Source: Henricia sp. BOLD:AAB3569 (Eukaryota > Echinodermata > Asteroidea > Spinulosida > Echinasteridae). Taken from it: a DNA stretch of 64,000 bases. Below, one piece after another: positions 325-63,238 of this stretch. The notes under the pieces were generated by a model. The model saw only the letters and a list, made by a program, of their open reading frames with translations, ran no database searches and was not told the DNA's origin. The translations under genes were made by a program, and so were the position numbers. How positions within the stretch are numbered: position 1 is the first letter of the stretch; every line of letters begins with the position of its first letter. The DNA lies in the NCBI GenBank assembly GCA_037783545.1, contig JBBELK010000293.1, forward strand, positions 186,001 to 250,000. The letters run 5' to 3'.

Positions 325-3300
325 CTAAAAAATATAATAAAAAATAAAAATCTGGTTTAAAAATTATTATATAAAATGAAGCTTTTGCACATACTGTGTG
401 TTTCTGAATACTGTGCAGCCGAAGCCCTTATCCTATGCACGTCCATGCTAGGTGCACCAAAGCACACGTTCACGTCATGCATCGAGTGAATGGATTGCAT
501 CTATGTGGCTGAGATTTCTACGAGGCAGTTTTCTCGACAGACTTTTAATTACGAGTGGAAATAACGCTGTTTTAAAAAGTTTACCAATCATGTACTGAGC
601 GTGATCCAAAACTGGTAAACACTGGATAAAAATTTCAACATTTCTTAAATTAATCAAAATAATACCTCGAACAGTAAAGAAATGTCCATATTTTACAATC
701 ATATTACAAAAATTAACAGAATAAATTTAACTGGGTACACTGTGCCATCACATTTTCAAGAAATAGTTGAAAATGCATGTAAAAAATTGTAGTTTTTGTC
801 ATTTTTATTGATTGTCCGTGCTTCACGCATAAAAACAACCTCAAGTCAATTTCAAAATGTGATAAACTGGGTGTGTGTATTAACATCAGTAGAAGGTAAA
901 CATATAGGTTCACTTTAGTTTTCATTTATTGTTGACTAAGAAAACGCATTTGATTGGATCACGCTCTGTTATATCCCACAAAAAAACTGTTTTACTTATT
1001 GGAATTTGCCATTGACTGCAGTGCTTAGTTGTAATACAAAATGGCAGTTTTCCTAAAATGCCAAAAATGGATATACAGCATTTTGCGATGAAACTTTTCA
1101 AATGAGTGCCAATAAAGAACATGTATAAAACAAGTGTGACATTAAATCGCTCACCTGAATTTTCACAATTATTTCCAAAGAATCCTTGCCTGCAGGAGCA
1201 AGTGTACGACGCACCACCTTGACTGTTGCAAGTGGCCCCGTTTATGCAAGGATTAGACACGCAGGGGTCGGTCGGCGTAATGCTTGTGCAACGTACACCG
1301 CTGTATCCGTTGCGGCAAATGCACAGGAACCCGCTCGGTTGTCGATAACATGTACCGCTGTTCTGGCACGGGTTAGGGTTGCATACGTCGTTTGGATCTA
1401 TAGGCTCACTGGTCTGGCATCGAGCACCGCTGTAGCCCTGTTGGCACTGGCATTGGTAGCCTAGTCCTTGAGAGACGCATGTACCCCCGTTTAAGCATGG
1501 GTTAGAGATGCATCCTGAAGACACTGTGGAAAGGGAAAACAGTTATACAGTCAAATCTGCTATTGAAGGAGCGCGAACAGATTTTATGGATTTCGTTCAG
1601 AGGGCGGGCTCTCACTGCACTATTTTCGTCCGTCAAAGTACGTGAAATTGACGTATGTCGTCTCTGGTCCATTGATGCATTTTCAATGTGAACTGTCTCA
1701 AAGATTAGCTATCACGTATGTCGCGTAGAGAAATCAACGTATCGGGAGGTTTCGTACGTCAAATTGACAGATGACGGAAGAGTTGATCCGAGGTCTACTT
1801 GTCCGTCAAATTTTCATCAGACAAAATCATCTATGATGTCTTAGTGATGTCAGGGTTAGGACGTCCTAGGGGTTAGGACGTCCTAACTTTTTTTTATTGC
1901 AATCCCAACCAATATTTATACACGGAGAGAGACAATGTGGAGTATTAATAATAATAATAATAATAGCAATCTTATATAGCGCCAAATGCCAGGGCCCAAT
2001 TTCATAGAGGTGTTTAAGCACAAAAAACACTTGCCTAGTAGAGAACGTTACCAGTGAAATCCTCATGTAATAGAAGTAGCATATGACCAGTGTTAGAGGA
2101 CTGTTTCATTACCATGACAATCTCATGAAATTTTTGCCGGTAACCTCATTTTATCAAGCAAAGTTTTTCATGCTTAAGCAATTTTTCATGCTTAAGCAGC
2201 TCTATGAAATTGGCCCCAGGGCCTCTAGGCGCTTTACAGTATAAACCAAAGTGATAACATACATATATACATGTACATAGATTTTAAAAAAAGATTAAAC
2301 GTTAAAACCAAAGAGCATCATCAAGAGCATCAAGTCTGGTAATACTGAACAAAAAGATGTGTCCCAAGCTGGGACTTGAAATTACTGATGGAATGAATTT
2401 GACGCATGCTGTTAGGAAGACCATTCCAAAGGGTGTGCGCTGAAAAAACAAATGATCTATCACCATAGAATTTTTTTGATGAATGAGCAGGTACCCTCAA
2501 TTGACAGTCCAATGATGATCTTAGAGATCTAGATGGGGTATACAACTGGACAAGGTCATAAAGATAACCTGGAGCTATGTTATGAATGGCCTTAAAGGTA
2601 AGTAAAAGAGTCTTAAATGCTAATCTTTGCTTGACTGGAAGCCAATGAAGCTGAAAGAGAATTGGTGTCATGTGCTCACGTCGAGAGACACGAAGTACAA
2701 GTCGTGCCGCAGCGTTCTGCACTCGCTGAAGTTACGCAATTTCTTTGTCCGGTAATCTAAAAAGTAAGGAGTTGCAGCAATCTAACCTCGAGGTAACAAA
2801 AGCATGCACCAAAAGTGTCTTGTCTAAGGACACAACGCAATAGACCTTTATCACGGTGCGTCCATCTTTGTCTTGTTCCCCACTGCATAGTACATGTATG
2901 TGTCGGGCATGATCAGTGCGTGCGTGTCTGCGCGATAGTGCGTGCGTGTCTGCGCGATAGTGCGTGCGTGTCTGCGCGATAGTGCGTGCGTGTCTGCGCG
3001 ATAGTGCGTGCGTGTCTGCGCGATAGTGCGTGCGTGTCTGCGCGATAGTGCGTGCGTGTCTGCGCGATAGCGCGTGCAGTCTCCCGTTGTTGTTTTGAGA
3101 GAATCAATGTCCGCGCTGCGCTTTTCTTGATCGCACCGCGCGCATGGCATTGTGATGCACACAATGAACATTTTCAACACGGGGCCAAACTATTTTATTT
3201 CGGCAAGCATCGCTTTGGTTACGTTCATTTTAATAAAGGAAAAGGGAAGATGGCCGCACCGTGATAAAGGTCTATAGCAGTGACCAGGCTTCGAACTACG

Positions 3301-6300
3301 AACCCATCACCTGAAAATCCGACGCGGTATCCACCTGACCACCACATCTCCTTTTAAATCATGTAATTTGTCGGTAAACAGGGGTGGATTGCAATATGCG
3401 GTCTAAGACCGGTCTATAGGCTTAGCCAGCTAACGCAACGTCTACTAAGACCGGTCTATAATGCATAGTTCTGACCTGTCAATCAAGCCGAACCCGCTAC
3501 CAATCACAACAGAGCTAGCAGACGGCACCCACAAAGGTCAAAGTGATGCAATCATCACAAACAATCCGCGATGTTCTGCCCATACAGTTTGTATGCGCCA
3601 GTGACCGGGTGAATTTTGGTTTCAATGTTGGGCGATTCGCTGTTCAAAGGTAGGAAAGCACATTTTTATGAAAGATATGTCATCCCTGCATTACTAGCCC
3701 TTCGCTCAGTGTGTGCTACGGTAACTGTCGACCTCAAAACATAAATACCTTTGGGTTTTCTCCAATGAATCTGTGCTTTTCATGCCGAGTCCCGTTGCTT
3801 TGTACGTAGTCTTGCCATTTTTTTGCAATGGCTTGTGAGCACATAGCAACAATATCCAAGGGGGCGGAGTTAACTGGGCAATCTCGGAACTATGCATTAT
3901 AGCCCGCTTGCAATATCTCAAAGCAGGCTATAATTTTTTGACACCGCGCTACATCTCGTAATCTTGCATGAAAAAAGACCCAAAAAACGCACATTGTGCC
4001 CATTAGAGCCCTTTTAGTGCCATTTGATAATTTTCGCGGTCAGTTTCTCTGCAAAAACTGCACCACACACGCATCAAGTGGCTTTGGGAGGCATTTGTCT
4101 AGATTGGTTCCCGATCCCTATAGATTGGTTCGCTTATTGCGAAAATATAGGGATCGGTAAAGGGCAGCCATGACGGGCAGAATTCTGCCCGTCACGTGGT
4201 TATTATTATTTTTAATTTTTTAGTAAGTGCGCAGTTTTTGCATTGACATTTGTAACTTGACCGTGCGTGTCGAAAATATCCAATTATGTAAATAAAGTAC
4301 ATTGCCTAAAGCAAAGGGCTTGGCCAATTTTTAAATATAAAAAACTCAATGCGCACGCGCAAAGACGACCAATTACAGATCAAGATGAAGCGCCCTTTAC
4401 CTGTCCTTATATTCTCCTGTGTGGAATATGTGGACGGGAACCAGTCTAGCATTTGTCTGGCTTGAAATCACACAAGGATAGACAGCTAGCTGCGTCACTT
4501 TACATTAAGATGTGCGTGTTTTTCGGCTGGCGCAGCTGTACTTTGCAATAGGCTAGACTAGCGACTAAGCCAAGACTGGCTAAGTTGGATAGCCAGCTAT
4601 AAAAGACAGGTCTTAGACCAGTGGCTAAGTCAATTTTATTGCAATCTGCCCCAGATCTGATATAATGGACGGGTAACCCACCTGAAGTTTGACAGTTATT
4701 TCCACCATATTCCTCGGCACAAACACAGACGTATGAAGGAGATCCGGATGGAGCACTTCCCAGTATGTAACAGATGCCACCGTTTAAGCACGGGATAGAA
4801 TCGCAGCTGCCATCTGGTCCATTGACTGCAAACAAACGATACAGCGTGTCTCAGAAAAAAATGTTCCTTTCATCATGGACTGCTAAATAACTACCAAAAT
4901 CAAGTTTTGTTCTCAATTCGGTGTCCGGATATGCACTTATTTATGTACTTAATATGCACTTAAGTGAGAAATGCTAATTTACGGAGTCGTATGACTTGGT
5001 TGCCATAAAATCAAACTTTAATTTTAGAGCCGGAGGGGAATTTTCCCATTGTTTTTTTCCTCTTAAAAAGGGTTTTTGCGGGTTTATTGCCCTTCCCGTT
5101 ATTAGCGTAAATTTTAGTGTCACGTGCATGTATATTAATTTCTTGTGATGTTGTTCTTCTGTAACCATTAGTTTTTTGATGTTGTAGTTGTTGTACAAAT
5201 GTATCTTATTCCAGTTTGTTTGTGATTGTGAAGTTGTTCAATTTAGTATATTTGTTCTGTGTGTTTGCAGGGCCCCAATGGAAACAAGTTTTTGTAAACT
5301 GTTTGGGCACACCCCGGGTAAATAAATGGAATAAATAAATAAATAAATAAATAAATAAACTCCATTGAAAATGTTATCAGTCTTGCTTCATTGGTTTTGA
5401 GTACACAGGATATTATGTAGGAGGTTTACTCCCAGCAGTTAGTTGGGTTTCCCCAACAGGTAGTTAGTTTCCATGGCACGGAGTGACTAGGAGCATTGCT
5501 ACTCCCCCTGGATGGAATGCCAGTCCATTGCAGTTTTTCCCCCAGCAGTTAGTTGGGTTTCCCCAACAGGTTGTTAGTTTCCATGGCACGGAGTGACTAG
5601 GAGCATTGTTACTCCCCCTGGATGGGATGCCAGTCCAACGCAGGTTTTACCTGAGTAGTTAGTTTGGTTTCCAGTAACCATTTCTAGTGTTTGTCGCATC
5701 CTATGCAAGGCTTACAATACTTGGGTTTCACTTTCTTGACAACCGGTTGCTACCCGCCATTACTGTGTCCATACTATGGCACGCCAAAGCGAAAATAATT
5801 CAACACTGATAATTCTGCCATCAACCCTGAAAAACAAGTCTCGACATTTTTAAAAACTTGCCAACAAAAGCACGGTATGCCAGTTTCAAAAAGTCTATCA
5901 AAATGTAAAAGTCATGCCAACTTTTGTTTTTTTGCGCAACATTTGCGAAAATATGCGTCAACATTAAATGTTGAAATATTTTCGCTTTGGCGTGCCATAG
6001 TATGGATACAGTAATGACGGATAGCGACCGGTTGACAAGAAAGTGAAACCCAAGAATTGATCACGTTCAAATGACGTCACTTCCTCAGGCATGAGAATGG
6101 GTTGTGTTAGAAAAAACTGGAAAATAGCGATTCACTATTAATGACCCAAACAAGCCGTAGGCTTGGCCTGAGCCGAAGGCGAGGCATGCCGGGGTTCTCA
6201 ATGGGGCCGGGGCCCCCTGTCGGGGAGTTCAAGGGGTCAGCGCCCCCTTTGGAAAATTTTGACAATTTAGGTACTGAAAAGTAGCATTTTCAAGCAATTT

Positions 6301-9300: not shown

Positions 9301-12300
9301 ATGGAGTTTGCTAGCAGAATTGGACGTAAAGATCTGATTAGCCTGAAGAAAAACAGTTTTATCTTTCTCGATACAACAGACGTGGCGCAACAACATAAAG
9401 AAAGGTTATATAAGCAACAGAGGCTAGTGCAACCAATGTGCTTTTCTTGCTCTTTTTGCTGGTTAGCACTCGGGCCACGTGGGTCCATCCTGAGATATCA
9501 GGGAATTTCCACTCTGCAAAGCGGCGTAACAATACCCTGAGGAAACACACGCAAATCTGTGGAGTGAGCCGGCTTTTGTCTTGAGCCAACTCACGCCCGA
9601 GTCATTTTGATGTAATTTAATCAAAACGATTTCTATACTTTCCAGAAATTGTATTGGGTTCCGTTCCTTATGACTGTCCCATTCCTACAAAAATTTTCAA
9701 ACGACGATCTTAATTTACTCCGCAGTTTTTCAAATTAATTACAGGGATGCATGCTGACGAATGTTATGGAACAGATTCCCCAGTATGCTTTAAATAGCAG
9801 CCAATCGCCGACGCGGACAACGGCCAGCATTACTGAGTACATGTATCACATGCATGCACGGTGTTTACAATCTGCGCGCGTTACATTTGAATGCCTGCAA
9901 TCATGCTACAATGCACTGCCAAGCGTCCTGATTGGTCCAGCAGAGGCGACTAGATTTCTGTCGCTTGTTCCACCGCGAAATGGGGCCTGTTTCAGCAGGG
10001 CCACTGTACGCAGGAGTTAGGGAGTGCGTTAAAGGGGCACTGTTGCAAGAGGATGGGTGGGTCATGATTGTCAAATTATGACACACAAAAGGCGTGACAT
10101 CACCAAAAAGCTATTACTAACCCTCAACATGTACTGCACATAAAATATCTTTGGCTCGTTCAGTATTTTCATGACTCGTGCGGTATATTCTTATATCACC
10201 CTAAAAGCCGTCCAATTATAATTATACCTACCATAATCTTGACACCTTTGTCCTCCGTATCTTGGAGGACAAGTGCAGGTGAAGACTCCAGACCGCATTT
10301 TGCAAGTACCGCCGTTTTCGCACAGGTTTAAGACACAGTCCTGATCTGATCCCCCATCCGTGTACTGGCAGTTGACCCCGCTGTACCCCGGCCGGCACTG
10401 ACATGCAAAGCTGTTACTGTAAGGGATGCACGTTCCCCCGCTACGACACGGGTTGGAGCTGCACACTAAACACAAAAACAGGTTTAAATCGTTAACTAAA
10501 GAAGCATGTTCAGATTTTGTCTGCAAAATGGATTTCGTTCTAACCCAACAATCATATAAAATACATCCCCAAAATACTATCCATGGGAAGAAAATAAGAA
10601 ATCTGAAATCTCCAATTTGGACGTGGAAAGTATTTTTAAAAAGTACTGCACTGCTTTATGTAACCGGACAAATTGTGACCGACTTTGGCAAAACCCGACA
10701 CTTCTCGGCATTTCCCATTACGTGATATGGGGCCACAACCTTAAAAAATGGCCTTTGGGACCAACTTGAAAATTTGGCAGAATCAACATCGGGATACATT
10801 CAAGATTTGTTTTGTTGTTTGAACTGTCTCAAAATTCCTCAAATTATTTACAAAAAATTAAATAATCAACTAGTTTGTCAAACTTTAAAGACCAATAGCT
10901 CCATTTCACTTTTTCTGATCTGTCATACTTTAATTGGTCATAACTTCGCCAAAAATTATCAGAATTTCCTCAAACATGTTTTAAAAGATACCTTTTTGTA
11001 TGCACACTAAGCTGATATCAAAACTTGAATTTTGAATTTTCATTATAAGTGTTGGGTTTTGCTGGAGCCGGTCACAATTAGTTTACTAAACTTTTGTGGT
11101 TTTTGACGATATCCCTGGAGATACGGATTGAGAACGCGAAATTTCGGATTGGTAATGATAATACGTAACAAATTATGAGTGCAATGCGAGGAAAATTGTC
11201 ATGAGGTGAGAGATGGAATGTTACATTCAGGCGAATGAAAATATTCCTCCCACTGCACGAATTAAAACATTCATTATTCGTTTTATATGAATTTGTGACA
11301 TTTCACTTTCCACCCACCCCTGTATTCCGCTATACTGCACATCCCCCTATTGATTAATCATAACAAATGACACATCACTGTTAAAAGGGAATAACAGGGC
11401 TTTCCAATGATACCAAATTCAACGGAAATGATTGAGTAACAAGAGAGAAATCGTCAGTCAAACTTGACTTTCCGAACGTTTTTTGAGAAGTTTATAACAT
11501 CTTTCCAATCGACAGTTTGCACTCCGATTCAGGTGACAAGATTGAACCATTCAAATGCATGACTAGGGTCTATAGACTTTTATTACGGTGCTGCCATATT
11601 CCCTTTTTCTCTCAGTTCAAATGAACGTAACTAAAGCAGGGCTTGCAGAAAAAAATTTGTTTGGTCCCGTGTTGTGTGCATCACAATGGCACACGCTTAG
11701 CGCGATCACGCAAACGAGCAGCAACAACAACAACGGGAGATTACACGAGCTATTGCACAATCGGGCAGACGCACTGATCGTGAACAAGACAAAGATGGAC
11801 GCACTGTGACAAAAGTCAATTGCTGGGCTGCGTTCCAAACACGCGAACGGTTTGTTAACGTTGGCGGCAACGTTTGCTCATGTGGAATGGGTTGTTTGCC
11901 AAAATACATTGTCAAGATGGCGGCGCCCACAGTCACAACAATCGTACTGACGTTGAATGTGGCTTTCCGCTGCTTTCCAATTTTTTAAAGAGATGTGACA
12001 CGTTGCTATTGATTGTGTATCGCCAGCGATAAGGGAGAAAACCACGAAAGGTGCAATATATTTGTTATTTTCCAGTTTGCAAACTATCGTCAGTCGTCTT
12101 TCATGTCGCGTGTGCCATTTTGAAATGCCTCGCGAACATGGCGAACAACTCAAAAGTTTGTTGGCCAACGTTGGCGAACGTTGGTGGCGCACAATACGTT
12201 CCACTCGAATTGTTGGCCAACGTTGCCAACGTTTGCAAACGTTCGCGTATTTGAAACGCAGCCCAGGCCTTTGATGCCACCTACTTGTATACTGGCAGTA

Positions 12301-15300
12301 GGTGCCCGAATATCCTGGAGAACATGCGCACCTGGGCTGCCCAGGGTCCTCATAACACGTGGCCCCGTTCTGGCATGGGTTTGGACTGCATCGGGTCACG
12401 TTGTCGATGGGTCCGTCATACTCGCACAAATATCCAGAGAACCCAGGCCGGCACACGCACCACCTCACACTAGATTCCGTGTAGCACGAACCCCCATTTC
12501 TGCAATGGTTGGGGCTGCACCTCGTTACGTTGTCGATCGGTCCGCTATACTCGCAGAAACGTCCAGAGAAACTTGACAAACAAAGGCAGTAATAAACGCT
12601 TCCCGTAGATAGGCACGAGCCGCCATTTTGGCACGGATTCGGGCTGCATCGGGTCCCGTTGTCGATCGGTCCGCCATACTGACAGTAAGATCCGGAAAAC
12701 CCTGGCAGACACACGCACTGATAGCCGCTTCCCCGAGGAATGCAGGAGCCTCCATTTTGACACGGTGCATTTCTGCATGCCGAAACTAAAAATAAAAAAA
12801 TACATGCAAGGATCTCATTGCAGTTTGTGGGATATATTTTTGCTTTGTGTGCACCGAACTCAATGCCATTTGCTTAAAGGCAGTATACATGATTGGTATC
12901 TCGAAAATCAGAAATGTTCACAAATTTATGCCTAACTTACACAATTTAAACATGATGACCGTAGAAAACTTCCCCTGAAATGGTTTTGTCTGAAGTGCTA
13001 TAGTCTTTGAGAAATAAGCAAAACAATTATTTTTTCGTCTAGCGAGACGTAAAATCAATTCGCCCCAAAACTATTTCGCCCTGGACCACTTCGCCCAAGT
13101 GCCATTTCGCCCCCAAACCACTTCGTCCAAACACTACTCCGCCCAAAAACCACTTCACCCCAAAACAACTTCGTGCACAGGCATGGTTCAGGACGAAGTG
13201 GTACAAGGCAAAGTGGTTTTTGGGGAGAAATGACCGCACACCCTTTTTTGACTGCTTTCCCAAAAGTTAGACAACGTACAGAGCTGGTTTTTACTCAGGT
13301 TGGTTTTTATCATGAATATCTTCAATCACACAGGGGGATAAAACTATTTGTAACAGTTTACCAATCATGTATACTATCTTTAACAACTAGAGTCTGAACT
13401 AGCTCAGACTTGGTTCGACGGACTCGAGTCCCGATTTTCAAGAGTTTGGACTCGGCTAGTCATTAGGACTCGGAGATTTGGGATGACTCTATCCAAGTCC
13501 AGTTGAACAAAAAAAGATAAGGCCAAAACAAAAAAAGATGTTCTGGTTTTGGTCAGCGTGCGCGTCGATTTCAAGCATGCGCGTCAATCCTTTATCAATT
13601 CCGGAACTTCGGTCTGACCAGAACCAGAATACCTTTTTTTTTGGCCTAAGATACGTTGAAAAAAAAGTGTATTATTATAAAAGCCAGAAATTATTTTAAA
13701 ATGTTATGTTTATAGCTTACGTTGGATCCCAAAATTATTAAAATAAAATTTCGAGAATGTGAAACAAATCGTTTCAATCAATTGAAATGATTTTGAGTGC
13801 TCAAAATATATTGCACCCCAGCCTAAGGCAAACGTAGAAGATGCAAGAGATTAAAGGTACAATTATCAACACTTGTATAAATGCTCTGCAAAGCGACGTA
13901 ACAATACCCTGAGGAAATCCACGCAAATCTGTGGAGTGACCCGGCTGTTGTCTTGAGCCAACTCACGCCCGAGTCATTTTGATGTAATTTAATCAATTCG
14001 GTAATGTTATGCCGAAAAGAAACGATTTCTATACTTTCCAGAAATTGTATTGGGTTCCGTTCCTTATGACTGTCCCATTCCTACCAAACTTTTAAACGAC
14101 GATCTTAATTTACTCCGCAGTTTTTCAAATTAATAACAGGGATGCATGCTGACGAATGTAATAGAACGGATTCCCCAGTATCCTTTAAATAGCAGCCAAT
14201 CGCCGATGCGGACAACAGCCAGCATTACCGAGTACATGGGTATTTCTATAAATTAGGGGTCCAATGTTGGTGTCCCCCGTTACATTTTACATCTTGTTTT
14301 TGTAAATTCAGGACAAATTCTTTAAATACTTTCCATCTCAAAGGGCGAGTACATAAAGTACAATTCATACAAAATTATTTAAATGCCATTTTAATGATTT
14401 TTGTACTAAAAAATAACACGTATTAGGTGTAACGGGGGACATTAAATGTCACACTTTTGGACCCCTAATTTATAGAAAGACCCACATGTATCACATGCAT
14501 GCACGGTGTTTACAATCTGCGCGCATTACATTTGAATGCCTGCAATCATGCTGCAATGCACTGCCAAGCGTCCTGATTGGTCCTGCAGAGGCGACAAGAT
14601 TTCTGTCGCTTGTTCCACCGCGAAATAGGGCCCGTTTCAACAGGGCCACTGTACGCAGGAGTTAGGGAGTGCGTTAAAGGGGCAATGTTGAAAGAGGATG
14701 ATATATGCTGGACTCGGACTCAAACTTGGATTTGTACATGGTCATCAGGAACTCAAAAAATTGAAATGTCTCCACAAGAAAAACCAAGACCAGTGTTTTT
14801 TTGTCTGATGATCTTAAAGGCACATACTGCAGGCTCGTCAGCATTGCGCGCGCGCCAAATTCATGCCACGAAATACGCAGCTCCATAGCAAAGGCATGGA
14901 TCTGCATATTTCGTCGCACAAATTTGGCGCGCGCATGCATTGCTGATGCGCCTGTGCTTTTAAGGGGGCCATTCCCTAGTCCATTTCACATAATTACCAT
15001 TTTTATGCGTAAGTTATTTTTAGTTTTGTTTTATACAAAACTAGCCTCTGTTCAGTCAGGCGTAAAATTCCCAACATGATGACGACGTTAATGAAAACAT
15101 GAAACTTATGTCTACCGATATTTGTGAGCCAATTTTCAAAAAATAATACTATTTTCATTTTATCTACAATTTTATGAGTGACTCCTTTTTTCTAAAACAC
15201 CCGGCCTGTATAGTGAGCGGACCAAGTATGTCTTGATTTTGTGGAAACCAACCTTCATTTTGGCATGTGCCGTCCGGATTGCATTGACACATGCAAGTAT

Positions 15301-39539: not shown

Positions 39540-39850
39540 TAACCCTTATTAACATTAATTCTCCCCGACGCAAGCTAAATCAATTACCGATTAATTGCGA
39601 TCATCCCCGTTGCTAACTGATTCGAACCGGCCATTCAACACCGGCTAGCTCGGTGGTCGAGTGGTTAAGACGTCTGCCTCGTTTGCAGGAGGTCGTGGGT
39701 TCGAATCCCGCCCGAGCACGCTATGAATTGTTTTCATAGTGTCTCGGGAAAGCACTGAGTATACAGTGCTAATATATACGTCGGGTAAGAGCAAAACAAA
39801 CCCTAATTAACATTCATTCTCCCCGACGCAAGCTAAATCAATTACAGATA
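39540..39850 (+). repeat. tRNA-Thr-like SINE flanked by its own direct repeats
   Basis: A 70-nt tRNA-like head (39,648-39,717) folds with anticodon loop CTCGTTT (CGT, Thr), T arm gtgggttcgaatcccgc and six paired acceptor bases gctcgg/ccgagc. It is preceded and followed by direct copies of ctccccgacgcaagctaaat (39,561 and 39,819). A second copy, minus strand with a clear target-site duplication, is at 61,635-61,882, so this is a SINE and not a tRNA gene. Confidence 0.82.
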
Positions 39851-52520: not shown

Positions 52521-53619
52521 AACCAACAATTTATTTCGCAAGTTTATAACCGAGGATGGTCCTTTCTGACGAAATGCACAACAAAGAAATTTGTTAAAGT
52601 TAAAACCGTTGCATAACGCACTCTAAAGATCCCAGAGCATTCTCCCAGTGTATCTGGCCATATCTAATTCTAATTCTTCTTGGGTTTCCTCACACTTGCG
52701 AGTGACAGTACAATGAATACAAAGAAATAATAATAATAATAACAATAATAAAAAATGCAGACTTCGACTGTTGATTTTAACTGGCCGTGGCACTCCTTTG
52801 ATAACACAATGAATGAAAGAAAAAAAATCCTTTCGATATCTGACATGATTTCATAATCGCATTATGTGAATAATGGAAATCGGTCAAGTCTGCCTGAGGG
52901 ATATGTTGGTATGTGTGGTAACAATTGACAAGGCTCCACGACGACATAACATTTGCTTTCAGAAATCCAACCAAATTCATTATAGCCCCAATACAACATT
53001 TGCAGTTACCCAAACGTTTACTTAACCAGTTGACAAAAAAACCCGATTAAAAGTGTTGACAGCAATGGTAATAAACACCATCAGATTTTTTCGTGAAAAA
53101 TGGTATACCTTTGTTGGAGAAATTGCCAACTGCAGGTGAAAATTTTTTTTTACAGTTATCTGCAGACAATGTGGCAACTTTGTTACAAGTCATTGACACA
53201 AAAAACATGCATTTTTCAGGTTTTCTGAAGTTATGTATTAGTATTACTGCATGTGGCTGACATTTCTACAAGGCAGTTTTCTTGACACAGGCTTTTAATT
53301 ACGAGTGGAAACAATGTCATTTTAACAGTTTACTGATCATGTACTCTATCTAAATCTCACCCTCTCGGACAAAACTGATGCAAGGCCCTCAATAAAATCT
53401 GTCATGCCTTGTTTACATGATCTTAAATTTTGGTTTAAATCCATTGGAAAATGACAAGGTTATTTAAGATCAAATAAAAGTAGGACTGTTTTTACACGTA
53501 GTATAAAAGTAAACACACTATTTTGTTTTTCTTGTTCTCTATGGCAATTTTAGCTTAGTAAGCTAGTATGCCCACTGTAACTTTTAAAGGAGGCCAGACA
53601 ATAACATTTGTGGACCTAT

Positions 53620-55886
53620 CTAAGGCGTGAAGAACCCAGGTTTAAACTCATTAAAATCTGGGAAAGCTTCTTTTACCACATCAGAGACATCGGTGGAGCT
53701 TTGACCAACGTCACTCAGGTATAGTCTTTCCAAGTTTGAGGCCCGATGGTCTTTCATCTCAGCCACATAATGTCTCACAGCATCTAGGCTGAATGTACTG
53801 CGCTCAAAGTAAACAGTATTGAGATCACCTGCCTCTCCAAGAAATGTTGTTACTTGGTTCAAGTCCGCATCTCCTAGGCTACAGTTGCGCAGGATCAACG
53901 ATGTCAGTTGTCCAATGACAGGAGATAAGTATCTCAAGAGATCCTTGATATTATTGTTGTCAATACACAGGTACACAGCTTTACATTGAGCAAGGGCATC
54001 CACTAATTTCTTGAAGTCTCCATCCGACTGCAGAATGGGCCCATCCAAACCTACACCGAACCCGCTCACCGACGACTGCGATTTGATGAATTTACAAAGT
54101 TGGTCAAGCTGTGTGTTCACCAATGTGGATCGGGATGAGGCATATTCGGAGGAGAGCTTCACATACAGGCGGGTAACTTGTGGTTGGTGGTTCAACTTTG
54201 AGATGGTCTCCTTGAGTGCTGCTATTTGTTCCCCAAAATGGTCCGAGAACTCTGTGTGGAAGTACAAGGAGTGGACAGTAACTAATTGAAGGATCCTTCG
54301 AGCTATTGTCTGATCTGGGATGAGTGTGAGGTGGATATTCAACCGATCAAGGTCCACCTTGTTGGGAATTTGTTGCAGATAGTAGTCGAATGCCGGGAAA
54401 TCCTCTTTGTACTTCAGTGTTATCCGCGATCCCACTTCCGCCACCAGATCAGGTGACTGTGCCTCAAAGACCAACATGAGTGTGAAATTTTGAATCCACA
54501 GGTATGTTGTGGTCTGTAAATCTTCCTTCAGCCCCTTCACGTGCTTAACTATCAGTTTTGCACAATTGCTGTCCATTCCACAGCAAAATCGGAGCAGGTA
54601 TTCCTTCTCTTGTACTGTGTCTACAGTTATGAGTGGCAGCAGTTTTTCTGCAATCAAATTCTTCCCTGTGGAAACCAGAAAGTGAGCTGCGAAGAATTCC
54701 TGGAAAGACTTGTGCAAAAAGTTGACCATTCTGGCAACCTCTTCAGCGACAGCCTTTGATTCTTGGTACAAGACTCCTATCTGCAACCCGTAGTCCAGAC
54801 TTTCCGGGAACTCACCCGGAGTGAAGACTAACCTTTCCCCTTGAGGATCAATTAATCCTTCGAAAGCAGTGTGACCTATTTTATCTTTGAGTTGATTGAA
54901 CCTGTTTTGAACTTGCTTGTGGTCGCCAAACTTGGAGGCAAAGTGCTTGATCAGCACTTCGACTGCTCTCTGGTAAAGTTCAGTTATACGATGGGGAAGC
55001 GTCTGGTCGTCTCTCCATATTAGGCACAGTAGTAGAAGCATGATTGGAGACTGCGAGAGAATCTGAATAAAGGCAGTTGTCGATACTTCCTTAATGAGTG
55101 CTTCGCCCTTGGACGGCTCCTCGGAGTAGAACTGCCTTATGTACTTGTTTCTATTCTTGTCGGAGAAACCAGTTGTTTCAACTATGGTAAAGTTGCTGTA
55201 CTCTTGAAGTGTGGCCATCTTATGAGGTCGTGTGGTGACAAGGACACTGCAGTCTCTGAATGCTTTGAAAGACAGCACATCCTTTATCGCGATGTCATCC
55301 TGATGTTGTGGCTGGGTCTCTATGAGCTGTGGTGAGGCTTCATCCCAGCCATCCAATACAAACAAGACCTTTCCGTGGTTTTCATTGATCAACTGAAGAA
55401 GATGCTTCCTTGTAAGTTTGGAATCCATTGGTAAAATTTGGCGGATAGCTTCCATGATTCCCCATCTGGCTTGAATCTCTTTCATCCTCAGAACAAACAC
55501 AAACTTGAACCCTGCCAGTGCCACGGAAGGATCACTCAAACACCTCCAGTCGTCAGCAATCTTTCTTGTCAGGGTGGTCTTACCACGCCCTGCCGTACCC
55601 ACGACAATGACGCGGCGACTACCTTTTAGAAGGTTTATCAAGTCTTCCTGTGACTCCAGAGGCACCTTTTTGGCCTCCTCTGGGTAGAGTGGCTGTGACC
55701 AGCCCTTCAGTCTCACTGGCTTTGAAGCCTTAAATCTTTCATCTGTCTCTTTGAACAGTTGGAGATTGATGTAAACGTCTTTGATTTTCTTTGCTATATA
55801 AAGCAACACAGGATGGACTGGAATGGTACTCATCTCTTGCTTGTAGTAAGTCTTCAGTTGGTCTATGCATATCCTCGTAAGATCAC
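53620..55886 (-). CDS. Ig-NACHT gene last exon: complete NACHT domain and C-terminus
   Basis: 755 codons to TAG (53620-53622), acceptor AAATTAG. It opens with DLTRICIDQLKTYYKQ, the helix that usually precedes NACHT. Counting from the first internal Met: Walker A GTAGRGKTTL at 79-88, hydrophobic strand FKFVFVLRM, Walker B VLFVLDGWDEA at 156-166, sensor VLVTTRP at 197-203, winged-helix signature FLHKSFQEFFAAHFL at 372-386. All key nucleotide-binding residues are present, so it should bind ATP or GTP. Residues about 625-725 have weak LRR character (LTSLILRNCSLGDADL, LERLYLSDVG). One intronless exon for the whole NACHT is common in expanded invertebrate NLR families. Similar fragments could be NLRC-like, but the upstream exons set it apart. 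Confidence 0.95.
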
Positions 55887-58800
55887 CTAATTTGGAGAGT
55901 AATACATCCAGTGCAATACAATAACAAATATTTAAAATAAACCATTTTTACTAAGGTTCAAACACTCTGGTTTTCAGTTGTTTTAAAGCACAAATCAGAG
56001 TTTATAATACGCGAATAAAATCACAATTAAAATGCACTAATGAGCAGTTAGAAATAAAATGATATTTAAACAGAAAACATTGGTTAGAATATAATTAATT
56101 CGCCAGAGAAAAATGAGATTATCATTTTGATTTTGCCAAAAACCCCAAAATTACAATTGAGATAGCTCTAAAAACTAGGCAGTTTTGCAAATTTGATTTT
56201 CAAAAATTTGATTACACTGAAAATTGCAATGTTAGAATATAGCAACCCCAACTTTTCAAACACTGATTTATCCTATAAATCAATAAAGAACAATTATGCC
56301 ATTCTCTTCTACAGTGTACATGGTATTGATTCTGTACTTCACACCTGCCACGTACACCACATAGCAACAACAAATTAGTCTGGTTAAGAAAATACAAAGC
56401 ACAAACCTTACCTAAAGATGGGTCTGGTGTAGGCCTTTGGTTTCCTTCAATGAGACCATCCATCTCAATGGTTTCATTGCCAGGGTCCATTGGTCTTCTG
56501 CCACATTTTTTCTAAAAAGAATAGCACAAGACAGATAGTAGTGATGTTCGAGATGCTTACAAAAACACCAACTTACAGCAAAGCTTTCTTGTTGCCATCA
56601 CATACGTGATACACATGTTTGCCCGGTGCCGCAGCCACCACTGCCCCAACTTACAAGCAAGTCTCTAGTGCAAGGCTCGGTGTAATAACGTTACCCATAA
56701 CCATGCGAAAGTTGCAAGTTCTAGAGCGTGGCAGATAAATTGGAATCTCGACGCGAGTACAAAAATAATGCACAGAATTATGATCTAAAAAAGGGAGTGA
56801 ATGGGTTTCGTGTTGGACTTTTTAAGACAATCGGAGGGAATGTTTGAGGTTCGCAGCCTCGGCACGGAAATTATAAAATGTAAAAAAGAAAAACCGTCCC
56901 GATTCTCAAAGATCGGCCAGTACGTGTCGTTCTGGTGTTGCCAGCTCTGAAGACAGTGCCACGTATGTTCGCGTTTCTAAAAAAACTGACAGTCGGTATA
57001 GTTTAACCAAGGCATAAGGCTAACTATGCATGCAGTATGATCACTGAACAAACGGTGTGCATGTGCTGCACTCGGTGGGTTCAGAGTTTCACAGCAATTT
57101 CAGAAAATGGAGGAATGTTCCCTATTTTGCCCTTATGGTGCTACAGGATTTGTACCAACCTTTAGGTGGAAACTGACAATTGCAAGAAGGGCCAGTGCCA
57201 CGAGAATACAGAGAATAATGACAACTGTCTTCAGCCCTGAGATGAATCTGTTGATTATACTCTCTTCAATTGTAGTGACAGGAGGATCTGTACTGAACCA
57301 TCCTATGGGAAGAAATCAAAACGTTATTGAAAAAGTCTGCATGTAAAAATTTAAACAAGCAAAACAGACAAACCATAACTTGTGGTGAAAATCTTGACAA
57401 TTGGATTGTTTCTTAAAGATAGTATACATAAACTGTTACAAATGATTTTATCCCCCTGTGTGATTGAAGATATGCATATATGCATGCATGATTAAAACCA
57501 ACCTGAGCAAAAACCAGCTCCGTACTTCGTCTAACTTTTGAGAAAACAGTCAAAAAAGAGTTTGCAGTCATTTCGCCCCAAAACCACTTCGCCTTAAACC
57601 ATTTCGCCCTGAACCACGGCCTGTGCACAAAGTGGTTTTGGGGCGAAGTAGCATTTGGGCGATGTAGTGTTTGGACGAAGTGATTTGGGGCAAAATGGCA
57701 CTCGGGCGAAGTGGTTTGGGGGTGAAATGGCACTTGGGCGAAATGGTTTTGGGGCGAATTGAATTTTCGTCTCATGAGACGAAAACTAATTGTTTTACTC
57801 ATTTCTCAAAGACTATAGCACTTTTAATAGACAAAACCATTTCAGGGGAAGTTTTCTAAGGTCATCATGTTTATATTGTGTAAGTTAGGCGTAAATCTGT
57901 GAACAGATATTGTCCATGCATTTTGGGTGTGGCACCTCGGGAAAAAAAAATGTTGAATTGATATTTTTCTAGAAACATAAGTTTTTCACTTTCAAATCAT
58001 AATGAGACATGAACGGAAAAAAAATCAACCAACGTTTAGTTATTACATAATTTCTGTCGATATTTAATTCATGGCGTGGCGAAAAAACGGCTGTATAAAA
58101 ACGGCGGTTTTCACAGGATTGCCGATGTCTAAAATACAAAGTATGATTTTTTTTGTCATTAAATTAAAGTTGCACTGTCCGTGTTTGGGTAAAAGGATTA
58201 AAAAATGTATTTACACCAGTAAACGAATTTAGAAAGCTTACGTGTCTCTTAAAAAAAAAAAAAAATTAAATTTCCGACTTTGGGAATTGGAGATACAAGC
58301 CTTTTTCTTGAAACGGGCTTCACATGTTGTACATGCATTGTGCACGTACGCTCATTATGTACATAATATGTGTACAAAAGACAGGGCCTGTCTTTTATTA
58401 TTTCTTGATTTTAATTGACTGGCATTAATCCGTGATGGATTTTTACGTTCTTGCATGGTACAACATGAAAGCTGATAACTTTTTATATTCTAGAAAAATA
58501 GCAATTTAACTTTTAAAAAACTTTGTTTACGCTCAAATCGGCCTAAAATCGGTGAGTGCAAAACTGAGTTTATAAAGCAAATGCTTTAAAAATTTGTTTG
58601 GAGAAAAAAATTAAATTTGCCAAGAACCACGGACAATATAACTATAAAAAGTGGCGTGGGGGACTTCGGAAAGAAATTATGCACTGAAAACCATAAAATC
58701 AACTCGGGCGGCATGCATTTTTGTGATTCTGTGATTTTCGGTGAATCGGTTCACACAAAATTCCATCCAACCGCCTTTTCTCAAAGCGATGCACGTCAAA

Positions 58801-61800
58801 TTTATGCGCATTAGGGTGCATTCACACTGAGCCTTTTCGCGAGAAAAAGCGACGTGGGCGGAATTTGGAATAAAATTACGCTATGAAAATCACAAAAACC
58901 TATTCCGCCCAAGTTTGTTATTATGTGGTTTTCAGTGCCTCATTTCACTTAAAATTTCCTCAATTTTTTTGTTTTGAAAATGGAATCAAATCCCAATGGA
59001 ATTGCAATTCTTAAAGACGCAGGCTCGTCAATGCGCGAAAGACAAATTTGTGCCATGAATTTCACCGCGCTCCATACCTTTCCCTGGCAGCCGCTCTTGC
59101 AGTCCCAGAGGGTATAGCAGGTCATGGTGCAGGCTAATAGCCTCGTCCATTCTGCAAATAGGGTGTGTTTCTTTTCGAAATCAAATATTTATCACAGAAA
59201 ACACACCCTTTGTAAATTCATGACATTTAGTTTCAGCCATATTCACATTATATTACAGATATGGTCACATTTGCTTCAAGAAAGTGTCATATAGATGGTT
59301 AAATTGACCGTGGGAACTATTTGGTTCAAACGACATACAACACACACAACTAAGTGCCAGCGCAAGCTTCGACTAGCCTAGTAATGCATGATCACACTGT
59401 GGCAAGCTCGCATAAATAATGAGCCTTCACGGCCCTCTGCGATTGTAAGAGCAGCTGCCCTACTCGGGCAAGGTATGGAGTGCGGTGAAATTCGTGGCAC
59501 GAATTTTTTTGTGGTGTATTGACGAGCCTCCGTCTTTAAGTGGAATTGGAATCAATTCCAAAAATGTTGGAATCGCTTTTTTTCTATAATGCGCAAAAGA
59601 AAGATTTTGAAAAAATTCTTCGATCTCGTCACTAGCCCTGTGGTCTAGTAGATTTTTACCTGAAATTTCAGCCCCGATTTTGGGAGGGGGTGGGAGGGAG
59701 AAGGAGGGGGAGGGCTTAAGGGGAGGGACCATAGATTCAATGGGGGATGTAAAAGGAAGAGGGGCGGGAGGGGGGACAGGAGGGGGGACAGGAGGAGGTG
59801 GCGGGAGGGTGCAGGAAGAGAGGGGTGGAGAATGAGGGGCAAGATCAGGGGTGGGGAAAGAGAGGTGCACAGGGAAGGGAGAGATGGGAAAGAAGGCAGC
59901 CGTAGTCCGACTTTAGGGCTGCGTTCAGGCATACAGTTCACGTTACTCACGCTCACTGCACTCGGGTCACATTACGCTAAAGAAAAGTCTGCAGTCAGCT
60001 TGTGTGAATGCCCATTAGTCAAAATGGCTGTCTCTTGCCTTGACTCGACAAAAGAAACTGAAGAAAATACAGACATACATCACAGAAACCCCCAAGAACT
60101 TTTGTGGGATCTTTGATGCTGTCTGGGACGTCACCTCAGTGAGTTGTTGTTTCAGTTATCGAGTTGACACATTGAGCAAATTCACCTCAATTCCACCCAT
60201 GTTCTGCCATGTTCATGCAAATCACATGACACATACTCTCACTGACCCGAGTGTTAACACGAGTATACACCCGAACACAGCCTAGCAGTTGTAAAAACAT
60301 ACCTGTAGAGATAGTGCTGTCTAGAGGTAGTGCTTGTTGTCTAGTGACTATTGCTTCAGTATATGAGCCGTTATCGCTGCCCATCGCAATGCCAAAAGCA
60401 TAGCACCGCCATGTTGCTTCTCCCTGGTATGTTTCTGTCAAGGTAACAGAACTGGTGAATACCGAGTCTTCTGTCAAAACAAAAAGAGAATAAAGTGTAC
60501 ATTTTGGAGTGAAAACAAACCAAGCTGGTACTCATCCCTGGCTTCCATGACAAAATAATAATAATAATAGGCAGTTCTTATATAGCGCATTTCAGAACCG
60601 ACGGAACTCTCAATGCGCTTTCTGCATTATTACCCCTGGTCATTGGGCTCAGTAGTATCATTCCTTAATCCTTCTCAACTCCCTGGGGAATATACAGCCC
60701 CGTGCTGCTTATGCGCACGGGGACTAATCAAACACATCATTTTTCACTACCCTCACAGGTACCCATTTCCTCCTATGTGGAGAGAGGCAATTCGCACCAT
60801 GGACGAGCCGGGGTGGGATTCGAACCCACGATCTGTAGATTCAATCACCACGATCTTGGATTCAACACGCCACACTGCTCATCGCAAGTTTCTTGAAATT
60901 GTTCTTAGGACGCAACACCAGTTACGGAGCGGTGACCCATCGCATCTCCAGTTACGAAGGATCGTAAATGTTAGTGAAATCGACCCCTGGATAGGATGCC
61001 AGTTCATTGCAGGTTTATCCCCAGCAGTTAGTTGGGTTTCCCCCAACAGGTTGTTAGTTTCCCCAACATGTTGTTAGTGTCCATGACATGGAGTGACTAT
61101 AGAGCATTGCTACTCCCCCTGGATGGGATGCCAGTCCATCGCAGGTTTACCCCCAGCAGTTAGTTGGGTTTCCCCAACAGGTTGTTAATTTCCCCAACAT
61201 GTTGTTAGTGTCCATGACATGGAGTGACTATAGAGCATTGCTACTCCCCCTGGATGGGATGCCAGTCCATCGCAGGTTTACCCCCAGCAGTTAGTTGGGT
61301 TTCCCCAACAGGTTGTTAATTTCCCCAACAGGTTGTTAGTTTCCATGACATGGAGTGACTATAGAGCATTACTACTCCCCCTGGATGGGATGCCAGTCCA
61401 TCGCAGGTTTTACGCCCTACGATAGTCGATGGGTTTCCCAACCAGTACTTAACCGGTACCCATTTATACACCTGAGTGGAGAGAGACAATGTGGAGTAAC
61501 GTGTCTTGTCTAAAGACAACACGATAGCAGTGTCCAGGCCTCGAACCAAGGAATTATTTCCAGAAAGTCTGATATGCTATCCACTAAACCACTGTGCCTC
61601 GATCTACACACGTTTACCCTACAAGTTTAAAATTTTAATTAGGGTCTGTTTTGTCCTACTCGACGTAACTAGATTACCACTGTATGTTCAGTGCTTGGCC
61701 ATTAGACACTGTGAGAAAAACTTCATAGCGTGCTCGGGTGGGACTCGAACCCACGACCTCCTGTATACCAGGCAGATGTCTTAACCACTCGACCACCGAG

Positions 61801-63238
61801 CTGGCCGGTGTGTGAGCAGCCAGTTCGAATCATTAGCAGCGGGTACCGCAACTGACCAGAGATTTGGGCTTGCGTCGGGGAGGTTTAAAATTACTGAATT
61901 TGTACATACCCTGAATGATGAGTGTACTTATTGCAGCAACATTTTCTGTGTCTCCATTTTCTAAAACCTTCACCCAGTGAACTTCAACTGGTGGTCTTGC
62001 TCCGGACACAAGACACGTCATGTTGTACTTGGATGCCTCGGGAGGTAGTTCCATCACACACTCCTTTTGGCAGTTGGAAATCTTTGGTGTAGGTTTGTCT
62101 GGTTGTACTGCATATGAAAAATAGCAATACGTGCTCATAATAAACAATTGTTGACTGGTGTGGTGTGGGATATGGAGTTTTATTTAAACACCCGAGGGAG
62201 CTCATAGCACCCGAGGCAATGCCGAGGGTGCTATGAGCTCCTGAGGGTGTTAAAACCCATATCCCACATTACACCAGTCAACAATTGTTTTGTTATATCC
62301 CGATATCCTGTGGGGTATTATGGCCGAGCAGTCTAGTGCGTCGAACTTAAGTTCCTGTGCTAGTACTAGAATGTAGGTTCGATTCGACGGGTTGTGGCAC
62401 CTGTGCCCTTGAGCAAGGCACTCAACCACACTTGCTCCCATTCCTGTAATTGACGGTCCCTCCGCTGTTGGATGTGGTAAATAAATAAAATACATGTGTT
62501 TAAAATTTGTGGAATTTAAACTGTACAAAAAGTTCAGTGAAATTTGGAGTATCGAGGTGCTTGATATGTCCTCTTCGGAACGACTCCAAAACTATTTTTA
62601 TAGTGTCCGTATCCAGTCTTAGGGCTAACCTGGGATTGAGACAGATGTGCTGGGTTAAAGGTTGGTTTGCAAAATACACTCTGAAATCGTGAAAATGCTG
62701 CAAAAGACATCCCTGTAGACTTGGACAAGGCTAGTACAATGGCTGATGAATAGGGTAGCGAGGTCACAAACCTGCCGACTATACAGACATTTACGTTACA
62801 ATTGAAATTTTTATTGATTTAAGTGAGCAGCACATATCTTGCAAGAATTATACCCACCAACGACTGTCGCATCCACGTGACTGTGACGGAAAGAATGGCC
62901 GGGGCCTTTGAGTCTTAATTTACAAACATAGTGTCCTCCGTCGGAATCTTTGATGTCATTTACAACAAGAGACATTCCTGCTGTGATGTTGTACTTCTCT
63001 TTCCGAATCCTGGGGTTCGGGTGATGAACTTTGCCTTCGAAAAACGAAATCAGCAGCACCTGTTCTTCTTCTGTTTCACCTTTGTACCAGTAAACGGTGT
63101 CAATGTTCTTCTTCGAGAACGTGTTCTTGGCAAGTAGTGTAGGCCTACACTGGATTGTTTCGTGGTCCTTGCCTCTCTGTAGGAAAACCTGGCTGGCGCT
63201 GGCAATGAACAGAGACGCAGAAACCACATAGGCCAAAA
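53620..63238 (-). CDS. Membrane-anchored Ig-NACHT receptor (two Ig domains, TM helix, NACHT NTPase)
   Basis: Gene-level entry; six exons are listed separately. Seen: spliced in order, the exons at 62858-63238, 61910-62107, 60303-60470, 57160-57302, 56412-56511 and 53620-55886 join in one frame (phases 1,1,1,0,1) to about 1,085 codons. The order is hydrophobic signal-like start, V-set-like Ig, second Ig, 19-residue TM helix, basic stop-transfer, linker, NACHT with Walker A and B, C-terminal region, TAG. N-glycosylation sequons lie only on the predicted outside (NIT, NMT, NGS). Known: NACHT proteins of the NLR class are usually cytosolic innate-immune sensors that oligomerise on activation. Inference: a surface receptor that couples ligand binding by Ig domains to NACHT oligomerisation. 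No TIR, CARD, DEATH or kinase domain is seen. The start codon is uncertain: either in a short exon further upstream, perhaps outside the window, or ATG 63296. Confidence 0.85.
56412..56511 (-). CDS. Ig-NACHT gene exon: juxtamembrane linker
   Basis: 33 codons, acceptor TTTTTAG phase 0, donor G|GTAAGG phase 1, which matches the following exon. Codes for KKCGRRPMDPGNE and then an acidic, proline-containing stretch. Its first residues complete a basic stop-transfer signal after the TM helix (HLK|KKCGRR). No recognisable signalling motif. Confidence 0.75.
57160..57302 (-). CDS. Ig-NACHT gene exon: transmembrane helix
   Basis: Phase 1 in (acceptor CCCATAG), phase 0 out (donor AAG|GTTGGT). Codes for WFSTDPPVTTIEES, then a stalk, then VVIILCILVALALLAIVSF and HLK. 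A single uninterrupted 19-residue hydrophobic segment with charged flanks makes a type-I membrane topology the simplest reading. Confidence 0.87.
57412..57905. mobile_element. Foldback element copy 5 (intron of Ig-NACHT gene)
   Basis: Same family as 12,875-13,383, in the opposite orientation. The left end is ttaaagatagtatacataaa; the right end is shortened. Confidence 0.8.
58168..58560. mobile_element. Foldback element TTAAAGTTGCACTGTCCGTG
   Basis: Full-length relative of 36,559-37,003; shares aagcttacgtgtctct, ggcctgtcttttattatttc and gactggcattaatcc. In the 3.0-kb intron between the second Ig half and the TM exon. Confidence 0.8.
59013..59540. mobile_element. Foldback element GACGCAGGCTCGTCAATGCG
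   Basis: Relative of 15,768-16,267: inverted ends plus the shared interior tctgcaaatagggtgtgt and acacaccctttgtaaatt. Non-coding. Confidence 0.8.
59672..59895. repeat. Polypurine tract
   Basis: About 220 bp of mostly G and A on the plus strand (gggagggggtgggagggaga and similar). May form triplex or G4 structures. Open frames on the opposite strand are Pro/Ser-rich by-products. Confidence 0.9.
60303..60470 (-). CDS. Ig-NACHT gene exon: second half of Ig domain 2 plus stalk
   Basis: 56 codons, acceptor TTGACAG, donor G|GTATGT, phase 1 both ends. TLTETYQGEATWRCYAFG supplies the second cysteine and the F/G-strand area of Ig domain 2. NGSYTE is an N-glycosylation sequon. It ends in a Thr/Ser-rich stalk leading into the TM exon. 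Confidence 0.85.
60555..60985 (-). repeat. tRNA-like SINE/LINE tail mix
   Basis: (aat)n, then a tatatagcgc...caatgcgctttc pair, then at 60,810-60,830 a minus-strand T-arm-like cgtgggttcgaatcccaccc, then half of the gtgaaatcgacccc MITE. Nested repeats. No gene. Confidence 0.6.
60985..61410. repeat. SINE-body tandem repeat, 131-bp unit, about three copies
   Basis: The landmark ggatgggatgccagtccatc recurs at about 61,120, 61,251 and 61,382, preceded by a diverged first copy at about 60,988. Continues into the full SINE body and tRNA-like head to 61,600 (minus orientation). Confidence 0.9.
61635..61882 (-). repeat. tRNA-Thr-like SINE with 10-bp target-site duplication
   Basis: tRNA-like head at 61,731-61,801 (minus strand, T arm gtgggttcgagtcccac, anticodon loop CTGGTAT), flanked by GTTTAAAATT at 61,625-61,634 and 61,883-61,892. 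The right duplication lies 17 bp from the donor of the Ig2 exon. Same family as 39,540-39,850. Confidence 0.9.
61910..62107 (-). CDS. Ig-NACHT gene exon: first half of Ig domain 2
   Basis: 66 codons, acceptor TATGCAG, donor G|GTATGT, phase 1 both ends. PTPKISNCQKECVMELPPEA precedes YNMTCLVSGARPPVEVHWVK, the B-strand cysteine and C-strand tryptophan of a C2/I-set-like Ig. The partner cysteine is in the next exon. NMT is a glycosylation sequon. Confidence 0.87.
62144..62290. mobile_element. Palindromic MITE AACAATTGTTGACTGGTGTG
   Basis: 147 bp near-perfect inverted repeat with gctcatagcaccc / gggtgctatgagc around the centre, 37 bp upstream (in transcription) of the Ig2 exon acceptor. Confidence 0.9.
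62318..62490 (+). repeat. SINE copy (GGGCAAGGCACTCAACC family) in intron
   Basis: A tRNA-like head ggccgagcagtctagtgc with gtaggttcgattcga, then the shared body tgcccttgagcaaggcactc, ending in taaataaataaa. Related to 20,880-21,250. Confidence 0.75.
62858..63238 (-). CDS. Ig-NACHT gene exon: signal-like stretch and V-set-like Ig domain 1
   Basis: 127 codons, acceptor CCCCTCAG with a long pyrimidine tract, donor G|GTGGGT. Begins LAYVVSASLFIASASQ (hydrophobic, signal peptide end), then Ig hallmarks: ETIQC (B-strand Cys), DTVYWYKG (C-strand Trp), DSDGGHYVCKLRL (D-x-G-x-Y-x-C before strand F/G). NIT is a glycosylation sequon. If the exon is not spliced at its 5' side, ATG 63296-63294 opens the same frame and gives a longer signal-anchor-like start. 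Confidence 0.87.

Follow-up and report, generated by a model that had tools for sequence, protein, structure and literature searches.

A sea-star gene predicted to join two immunoglobulin domains and a transmembrane helix to an intracellular NLR core

A stretch of 64,000 nucleotides from the sea star Henricia sp. BOLD:AAB3569 (hereafter the window; contig C293, positions 186001-250000, in an assembly of 740.7 Mb) carries on its minus strand what is best read as one gene encoding an Ig-Ig-TM-NACHT protein, with the NACHT domain predicted to lie inside the cell. This conclusion is well supported by the phases of the exons, a second haplotype, a homologue in Patiria, the positive-inside charge next to the transmembrane (TM) helix and the lack of AATAAA or ATTAAA between the TM exon and the stop of exon 6. 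The gene most likely codes for a sea-star surface receptor of the build published for AjNLRC4 of Apostichopus japonicus, so that the Ig-TM-NACHT build, described from sea cucumbers, is now seen in sea stars too. Its exons suggest how the build may have arisen, and its predicted fold indicates that a receptor of this type can retain the whole NLR core, LRR-like solenoid included. New here are the sea-star member itself, its intron-exon anatomy, its LRR-like part, an Ig-Ig-TM paralogue with no detected NACHT and divergent V-Ig alleles; among the open-licence PMC papers listed in the literature searches, none dealt with the sea-star gene.

The six minus-strand exons join into a single open frame of 1084 codons closed by a single terminal stop. 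Each exon is preceded by AG, exons 1 to 5 are followed by GT, and exon 6 ends in the stop; the Ig exons are flanked by phase-1 introns, and the terminal phases of the TM and linker exons are 0 and 1, respectively. Exon 1 (62858..63238) encodes the end of a signal-peptide-like stretch and a V-type Ig domain, exons 2 (61910..62107) and 3 (60303..60470, TWRCYAFGIAMG) the first and second halves of a second Ig domain (Ig2), exon 4 (57160..57302) a stalk and the TM helix (at about 57231-57163), exon 5 (56412..56511) the basic juxtamembrane sequence KKKCGRR and a cytoplasmic linker, and exon 6 (53620..55886) a pre-NACHT helix, the NACHT domain, winged-helix/helical domains, an LRR-like solenoid and the stop. 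These assignments draw on Pfam, frame, splice sites, hydropathy and, for exon 6, a fold model; exons 1, 2 and 3 align with residues 3-132, 134-199 and 205-250, respectively, of a homologue from P. miniata, P0021. On the joined protein, Pfam reports ig (7e-07) and V-set (1.3e-06) in exon 1, Ig_3 (7.2e-07) in exons 2-3 and NACHT (1.2e-26). An initial sequence-only reading of this DNA had already joined the six exons without a frame break, with intact splice sites and matching phases, had seen a V-like Ig followed by a second Ig and had argued against a chance fusion, and all three statements hold. Indeed, chance joining of the exons is ruled out: when random pieces of the same lengths were drawn from the minus strand of window positions 1-53000, the frame was open through exons 1-5 in none of 20,000 draws.

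The signal-like start that had also been proposed stands in part. Exon 1 opens within a signal-like stretch (LAYVVSASLFIASAS, 63236-63189, minus strand) and has no Met, and for the start exon itself there are candidates only. Two short candidates for a phase-1 start exon were detected in a scan of the 9 kb upstream; a candidate conserved in both haplotypes, ATGAAAG followed by gtaatt (C293:253862-253856, minus strand), would yield MKVLAYVVSASLFIASAS-Q, lies about 3.9 kb past the window end and has a donor that is not strong. When about 20 kb was scanned for hydrophobic starts of greater length, three other candidates common to both haplotypes came up, the nearest of which is MELFILIQCWYVVVMFST (68258-68204 of the extended numbering).

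Hydropathy reveals one strong TM helix, at aa 275-293 (KD 3.35), with KKKCGRR right after it, which bears out the single TM helix and basic stop-transfer first read from the letters. Exon 4 is the sole TM-type exon candidate in the roughly 8.1 kb scanned from the NACHT exon to the window end. From this helix and the basic cluster that follows it, the TM segment is predicted to stand between the Ig and NACHT domains, with NACHT on the cytosolic side. The accompanying statement that sequons occur only on the outside was mistaken, as three are found outside (83, 155 and 226) and four inside (308, 561, 796 and 997). The opposite arrangement, with NACHT outside and Ig inside, has been claimed, along with surface-binding and localisation tests, for AjNLR-new (PIK48001.1), another A. 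japonicus protein with the same domain list (PMC13133943). For the window protein, such an inverted topology is highly improbable, given the signal-like stretch before the Ig domains and the basic cluster after the TM helix. Moreover, according to its published description, the AjNLR-new topology started from TMHMM output that placed the Ig domain between two TM segments (PMC13133943); to judge from that description, a signal peptide miscounted as a TM segment would flip the topology.

The second most hydrophobic 19-mer of the window protein (aa 601-619, KD 2.08) begins 15 residues past the Pfam NACHT end. It forms a helix of the folded core in the AF2 model and is probably not a TM helix. A hydrophobic 19-mer also occurs 150-270 residues past Walker A in a chosen set of 21 NLR-type proteins, including 7 from vertebrates (best KD 1.09-2.27), an offset range that partly follows from the search having covered that stretch only. 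The second TM segment predicted for AjNLRC4 (776-795) begins 19 residues after its NACHT domain (PMC8699970). Because the 21 NLR-type proteins have a hydrophobic 19-mer in that place and the model makes it a core helix, this published second TM segment, judged by its position in the description, is probably a buried NLR helix. The comparison thus gives a testable reason to doubt the second TM segment of AjNLRC4; the same may hold for the inverted topology claimed for AjNLR-new.

Exon 6 codes for more than a nucleotide-binding domain. The NACHT domain (55117..55617, minus strand; Pfam 1.2e-26) includes Walker A GTAGRGKT at about 55599-55576, and the motifs GTAGRGKTT, VLFVLDGWDEA (Walker B) and VTTRP (sensor) are intact in both haplotypes. 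The AlphaFold model of exon 6 matches NLRC4, NOD2 and NLRP3 end to end and displays, beyond NACHT, winged-helix-type parts and an LRR-like solenoid of strands and helices (about residues 487-745 of exon 6; 53650..54426, minus strand), a predicted fold that Pfam misses; an earlier AF2 model built with 2 sequences had been poor (pLDDT 51.9). The complete NACHT domain of the sequence-only reading is therefore confirmed by its motifs and Pfam score, and as an account of exon 6 it falls short of the winged-helix-type and LRR-like parts. No CARD, PYD, Death, DED or BIR domain was detected in the window protein by Pfam at E<=0.1. Hence the NACHT motifs are present, a C-terminal LRR solenoid is present in the predicted fold and an N-terminal death-fold effector is absent; with Ig-Ig-TM where that effector would stand, the protein has an NLR core and is not a canonical tripartite NLR. 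In contrast, the cytosolic vertebrate NLRs NLRC4, NOD2 and NLRP3 bear a CARD or PYD where the window protein has Ig-Ig-TM.

The earlier remark that no characterised animal family with this domain order was known does not survive the literature, in which AjNLRC4 was described with function tests in 2021 (PMC8699970) and followed up since (PMC11932488; PMC13133943). AjNLRC4 (accession MN607598; PMC11932488) has an Ig-like domain (31-132) and an Ig domain (251-353) outside the cell, a TM segment (483-503) and a NACHT domain (600-757) inside (PMC8699970). It was stained at the membrane of coelomocytes, and ligands reported for its ectodomain are several bacteria, LPS, PGN and ‘Man’ (PMC8699970). 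The protein binds Vibrio, is dimerised, reportedly via its Ig domains, and internalised upon Vibrio infection, and drives phagocytosis, its inner part binding actin with a Kd of 5.87 uM (PMC8699970). For the window protein, NACHT oligomerisation across the membrane upon recognition by the Ig part, as envisaged in the initial reading, would be a hypothesis, the dimerisation reported for AjNLRC4 being ascribed to its Ig domains. A later paper describes a CASP-1/MLKL route to lytic death via the Ig part of AjNLRC4 after internalisation (PMC11932488), a role that an extracellular Ig part could hardly play without entering the cytosol once taken up. In Chiridota heheva, 6 of 53 NLRs were reported to carry ‘other domains’, V-set Ig among these (PMC8913654). 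Together with AjNLRC4 and AjNLR-new, this means that the kind is already known in echinoderms. Like AjNLRC4, the window protein has two Ig-type domains predicted outside, a TM segment, NACHT inside and no CARD. On the other hand, AjNLRC4 was published without LRRs and with an ectodomain of 482 aa, whereas the window protein has an LRR-like solenoid in its predicted fold and an ectodomain of about 272 aa. The likeness is to the published domain description, as no protein-search match bore the name AjNLRC4, and membrane location, bacterial binding, dimerisation, internalisation and actin binding belong to AjNLRC4 only.

Exon 6 is most similar to A. planci P0001 (839 aa, 54%) and P. miniata P0021 (1047 aa, 53-54%). 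The latter, an NCBI-listed protein, unites a signal-like start, a V-set-like Ig, a second Ig and NACHT in one chain; it shares 37% over 226 aa with the window Ig domains, and its V-set match falls under the Pfam cut-off (23.3 vs. 26 bits). The order of Ig and NACHT domains proposed from the window thus recurs in a second sea star, although no TM helix separates Ig2 from NACHT in the P0021 model. This raises the alternative that the main product of the window gene is also without a TM helix, exons 4 and 5 being skipped together to give an anchorless Ig-Ig-NACHT protein like the P. miniata model. Joint skipping keeps the frame in the window gene, and P0021 would be an instance of its outcome. 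However, P0021 is a database model, skipping of exon 4 or exon 5 singly breaks the frame, a secreted NACHT domain would find no cytosolic partner, and exon 4 is intact, with 100% amino acid identity between haplotypes (0 nonsynonymous and 1 synonymous differences). We regard a TM-less main product as unlikely.

A. planci P0001 bears on a different alternative, in which an Ig-Ig-TM receptor would end near exon 5 and a cytosolic NLR with its own first exon would use exon 6. Neither Ig nor TM was found in P0001, in which homology to the window sets in at the exon 6 border, to within one codon, and is preceded by a different N-terminus without Ig. Yet matches of this N-terminus to the window do not exceed chance level (E 2.1 or more), no Met stands ahead of the conserved first helix of exon 6, and P. 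miniata P0021 holds both halves in one protein. In addition, a minus-strand hexamer scan gave no AATAAA or ATTAAA from exon 4 to the exon 6 stop, the sole such hexamer between 57160 and 53000 being an ATTAAA 3′ of the stop (53294..53299). Two transcription units are accordingly quite unlikely, and two separate genes were rejected as the main reading for the missing hexamers, the exon 6 start without Met and the Patiria fusion. Residues 1-76 of P0001, in place of Ig-TM, start with MGAVWSWLL; that this N-terminus is myristoylated, as another route to the membrane, is conceivable as speculation.

In a 31-row tree, the window protein, P0001 and P0021 form a clade (100/98) apart from the other sampled sea-star NLRs, the order within the clade being less sure (93/86). 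A. planci P0022 and P0023 are the sister pair to this clade (100/98), and Death-NACHT proteins (PF00531 in P0025, P0026, P0028 and P0029) occur in the neighbouring clade. Among 37 homologues scanned of the 123 found, a strong TM helix before NACHT (KD over 2.3) was detected in four, namely P0022, P0023 and P0035 of A. planci and P0053 of Diadema antillarum (KD 2.45-3.26). These four models, which may be 5′-truncated, contain no Ig at E<=0.01. P0004, P0006 and P0009, among others, combine Ig, NACHT and LRR in precomputed Pfam domains; by eye, their Ig-like stretch comes roughly 250-370 residues in, after a long N-terminal part, and so looks like a different arrangement. A protein search with the Ig-TM part (window residues 1-345) scored 3386 candidates, none at E<=1; since it missed even P0021, it permits no statement on rarity.

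A second copy of the gene is located on contig C69, where its exons fall within C69:556001-566000. The match between C69 and the window extends from an EGF-repeat gene (C69:513508-514799, 98%), about 42 kb downstream, to a point some 19.7 kb upstream of exon 1 and is broken into mostly collinear pieces, and C69 is read as the other haplotype because of this long, mostly collinear match around the gene. All six exons and their splice sites are kept on C69, and the indels are whole codons. Between haplotypes, dN/dS is 0.46 for the whole gene (bootstrap 0.30-0.65) and 0.36 for exon 6 (bootstrap 0.21-0.65), the latter indicating purifying selection. The C69 copy has an in-frame stop in Ig2 (TGG to TAG in exon 3, residue 212 of the C69 count), and this favours the view of the locus as decaying or null, as the stop precedes the TM helix and no anchored protein would be made from C69 if the stop is real. 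A decaying locus is nevertheless improbable: the window copy is fully open, the upper bootstrap bounds of dN/dS are 0.65, and the C69 stop could reflect either a null allele that is segregating or a mistake in the assembly.

The divergence between haplotypes is uneven along the gene. The V-Ig domain is 82% identical in amino acids (dS 0.16, dN/dS 0.61, interval 0.29-1.25), the 16-residue signal-like stretch 75% (dS 0.61) and exon 5 79% (7 nonsynonymous and 0 synonymous differences), and for Ig2, exon 4 and exon 6 dS lies between about 0.03 and 0.06. Exon 1 (62858-63238 vs. C69:565121-565495) is strongly diverged and the following intron hardly aligns (55%), which suggests that the alleles separated long ago or that a different gene contributed sequence by exchange. 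The contrast between the V-Ig domain and exon 6 (18% vs. about 4% amino acid difference; dS 0.16 vs. 0.04), together with the conserved LRR-like part and NTPase motifs, is compatible with a receptor in which the V-type Ig rather than the LRR would be the sensor, an outside ligand releasing or nucleating an NLR oligomer under the membrane, in the manner of a surface-gated, inflammasome-like switch, and the V domain being kept diverse between alleles. We hold this reading to be rather doubtful. Should the Ig part gate the NLR part, the protein would be a rare case of an animal NLR switched from outside the cell.

Each half has relatives elsewhere in the same genome, few of them for the Ig half. 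At least 44 further NACHT matches, a count that includes fragments and haplotype duplicates, were identified, several of them in clusters (on contigs C1010, C291, C23 and others). Matches to the Ig half number at least 16, of which 10 correspond to the two haplotypes and 6 are on contigs C95 (2), C254 (2), C821 and C429. Among the matches listed, the nearest Ig relatives by order are those of C95 and C254, with 35% in Ig1 and 29-32% in Ig2a. The C95 gene (L045, C95:1020001-1030000, at about 814-6250) consists of Ig1, Ig2a, Ig2b, a TM segment (VPAIISPVVIAVLLIILALYYK) and a basic tail, IKKRWW, and its exon borders, read by eye, give the same intron phases as the outer half of the window gene; the C254 gene is likely its haplotype partner. 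No NACHT was present on C95 or C254 among the matches of the whole-genome search, and, among the matches listed in both searches, no NACHT-bearing contig held Ig relatives other than the C293 and C69 haplotypes. Of the 44 other NACHT matches, 14 were scanned for TM exons by means of a filter modelled on the TM exon of the window gene, with 0 found; as a scan of the same kind also missed the TM exon seen by eye on C95, such a scan can miss real ones. Ig pattern scans at the paralogue loci gave no convincing Ig, including one scan with the window as positive control, which was found at 62942. In light of the C95 paralogue, whose intron phases agree and for which no NACHT was detected, the simplest account is that an existing Ig-Ig-TM module was apparently joined in phase to an NLR exon.

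Taken as a whole, the evidence makes it likely that the sea-star gene is intact and encodes a type I membrane protein with an NLR core that works like AjNLRC4. This explanation is based on the frame and splice sites, the Pfam Ig and NACHT matches, haplotype conservation, P0021, the tree, the fold of exon 6 and the architecture and function of AjNLRC4; counted against it are P0021 without TM, P0001 without Ig or TM, a start exon known from candidates only and the C69 stop in Ig2. The protein would comprise a signal peptide, a V-type Ig, a second Ig, a TM helix, a short basic linker and a full NLR core in the cytosol. Its Ig ectodomain would bind a microbial or other surface ligand, ligand binding would cluster the receptors, and the clustered NLR parts would recruit cytoskeletal or other partners, leading to uptake, presumably with the participation of nucleotide exchange in NACHT or release of the LRR-like part. 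The steps described for AjNLRC4 would thereby carry over to the window gene.

The surroundings of the gene include several minor features. The intron between exons 2 and 3 contains a tRNA-Thr (ggt) match at 61730-61802 on the minus strand, the same as that of the gene; another tRNA-Thr match lies at 39647-39719 on the plus strand, and each may be a gene or a tRNA-derived repeat. The same intron has a 131-bp tandem repeat (60984-61410, 3.3 copies, 96%), and a similar-looking 110-bp repeat unit is found at 5425-5672. An interspersed repeat at 9500-10055 recurs in at least 38 further places with 89-95% identity, among 40 candidates scored. Upstream of the gene, at about 257-269 kb of C293, open stretches on the minus strand resemble what we take to be a multi-pass MFS-type transporter. 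At the other end of the window, exons of one or more EGF-repeat genes are located on the minus strand at 922-1542, 10191-10655 and 11878-12873, with Pfam EGF matches for the first and the last of them.
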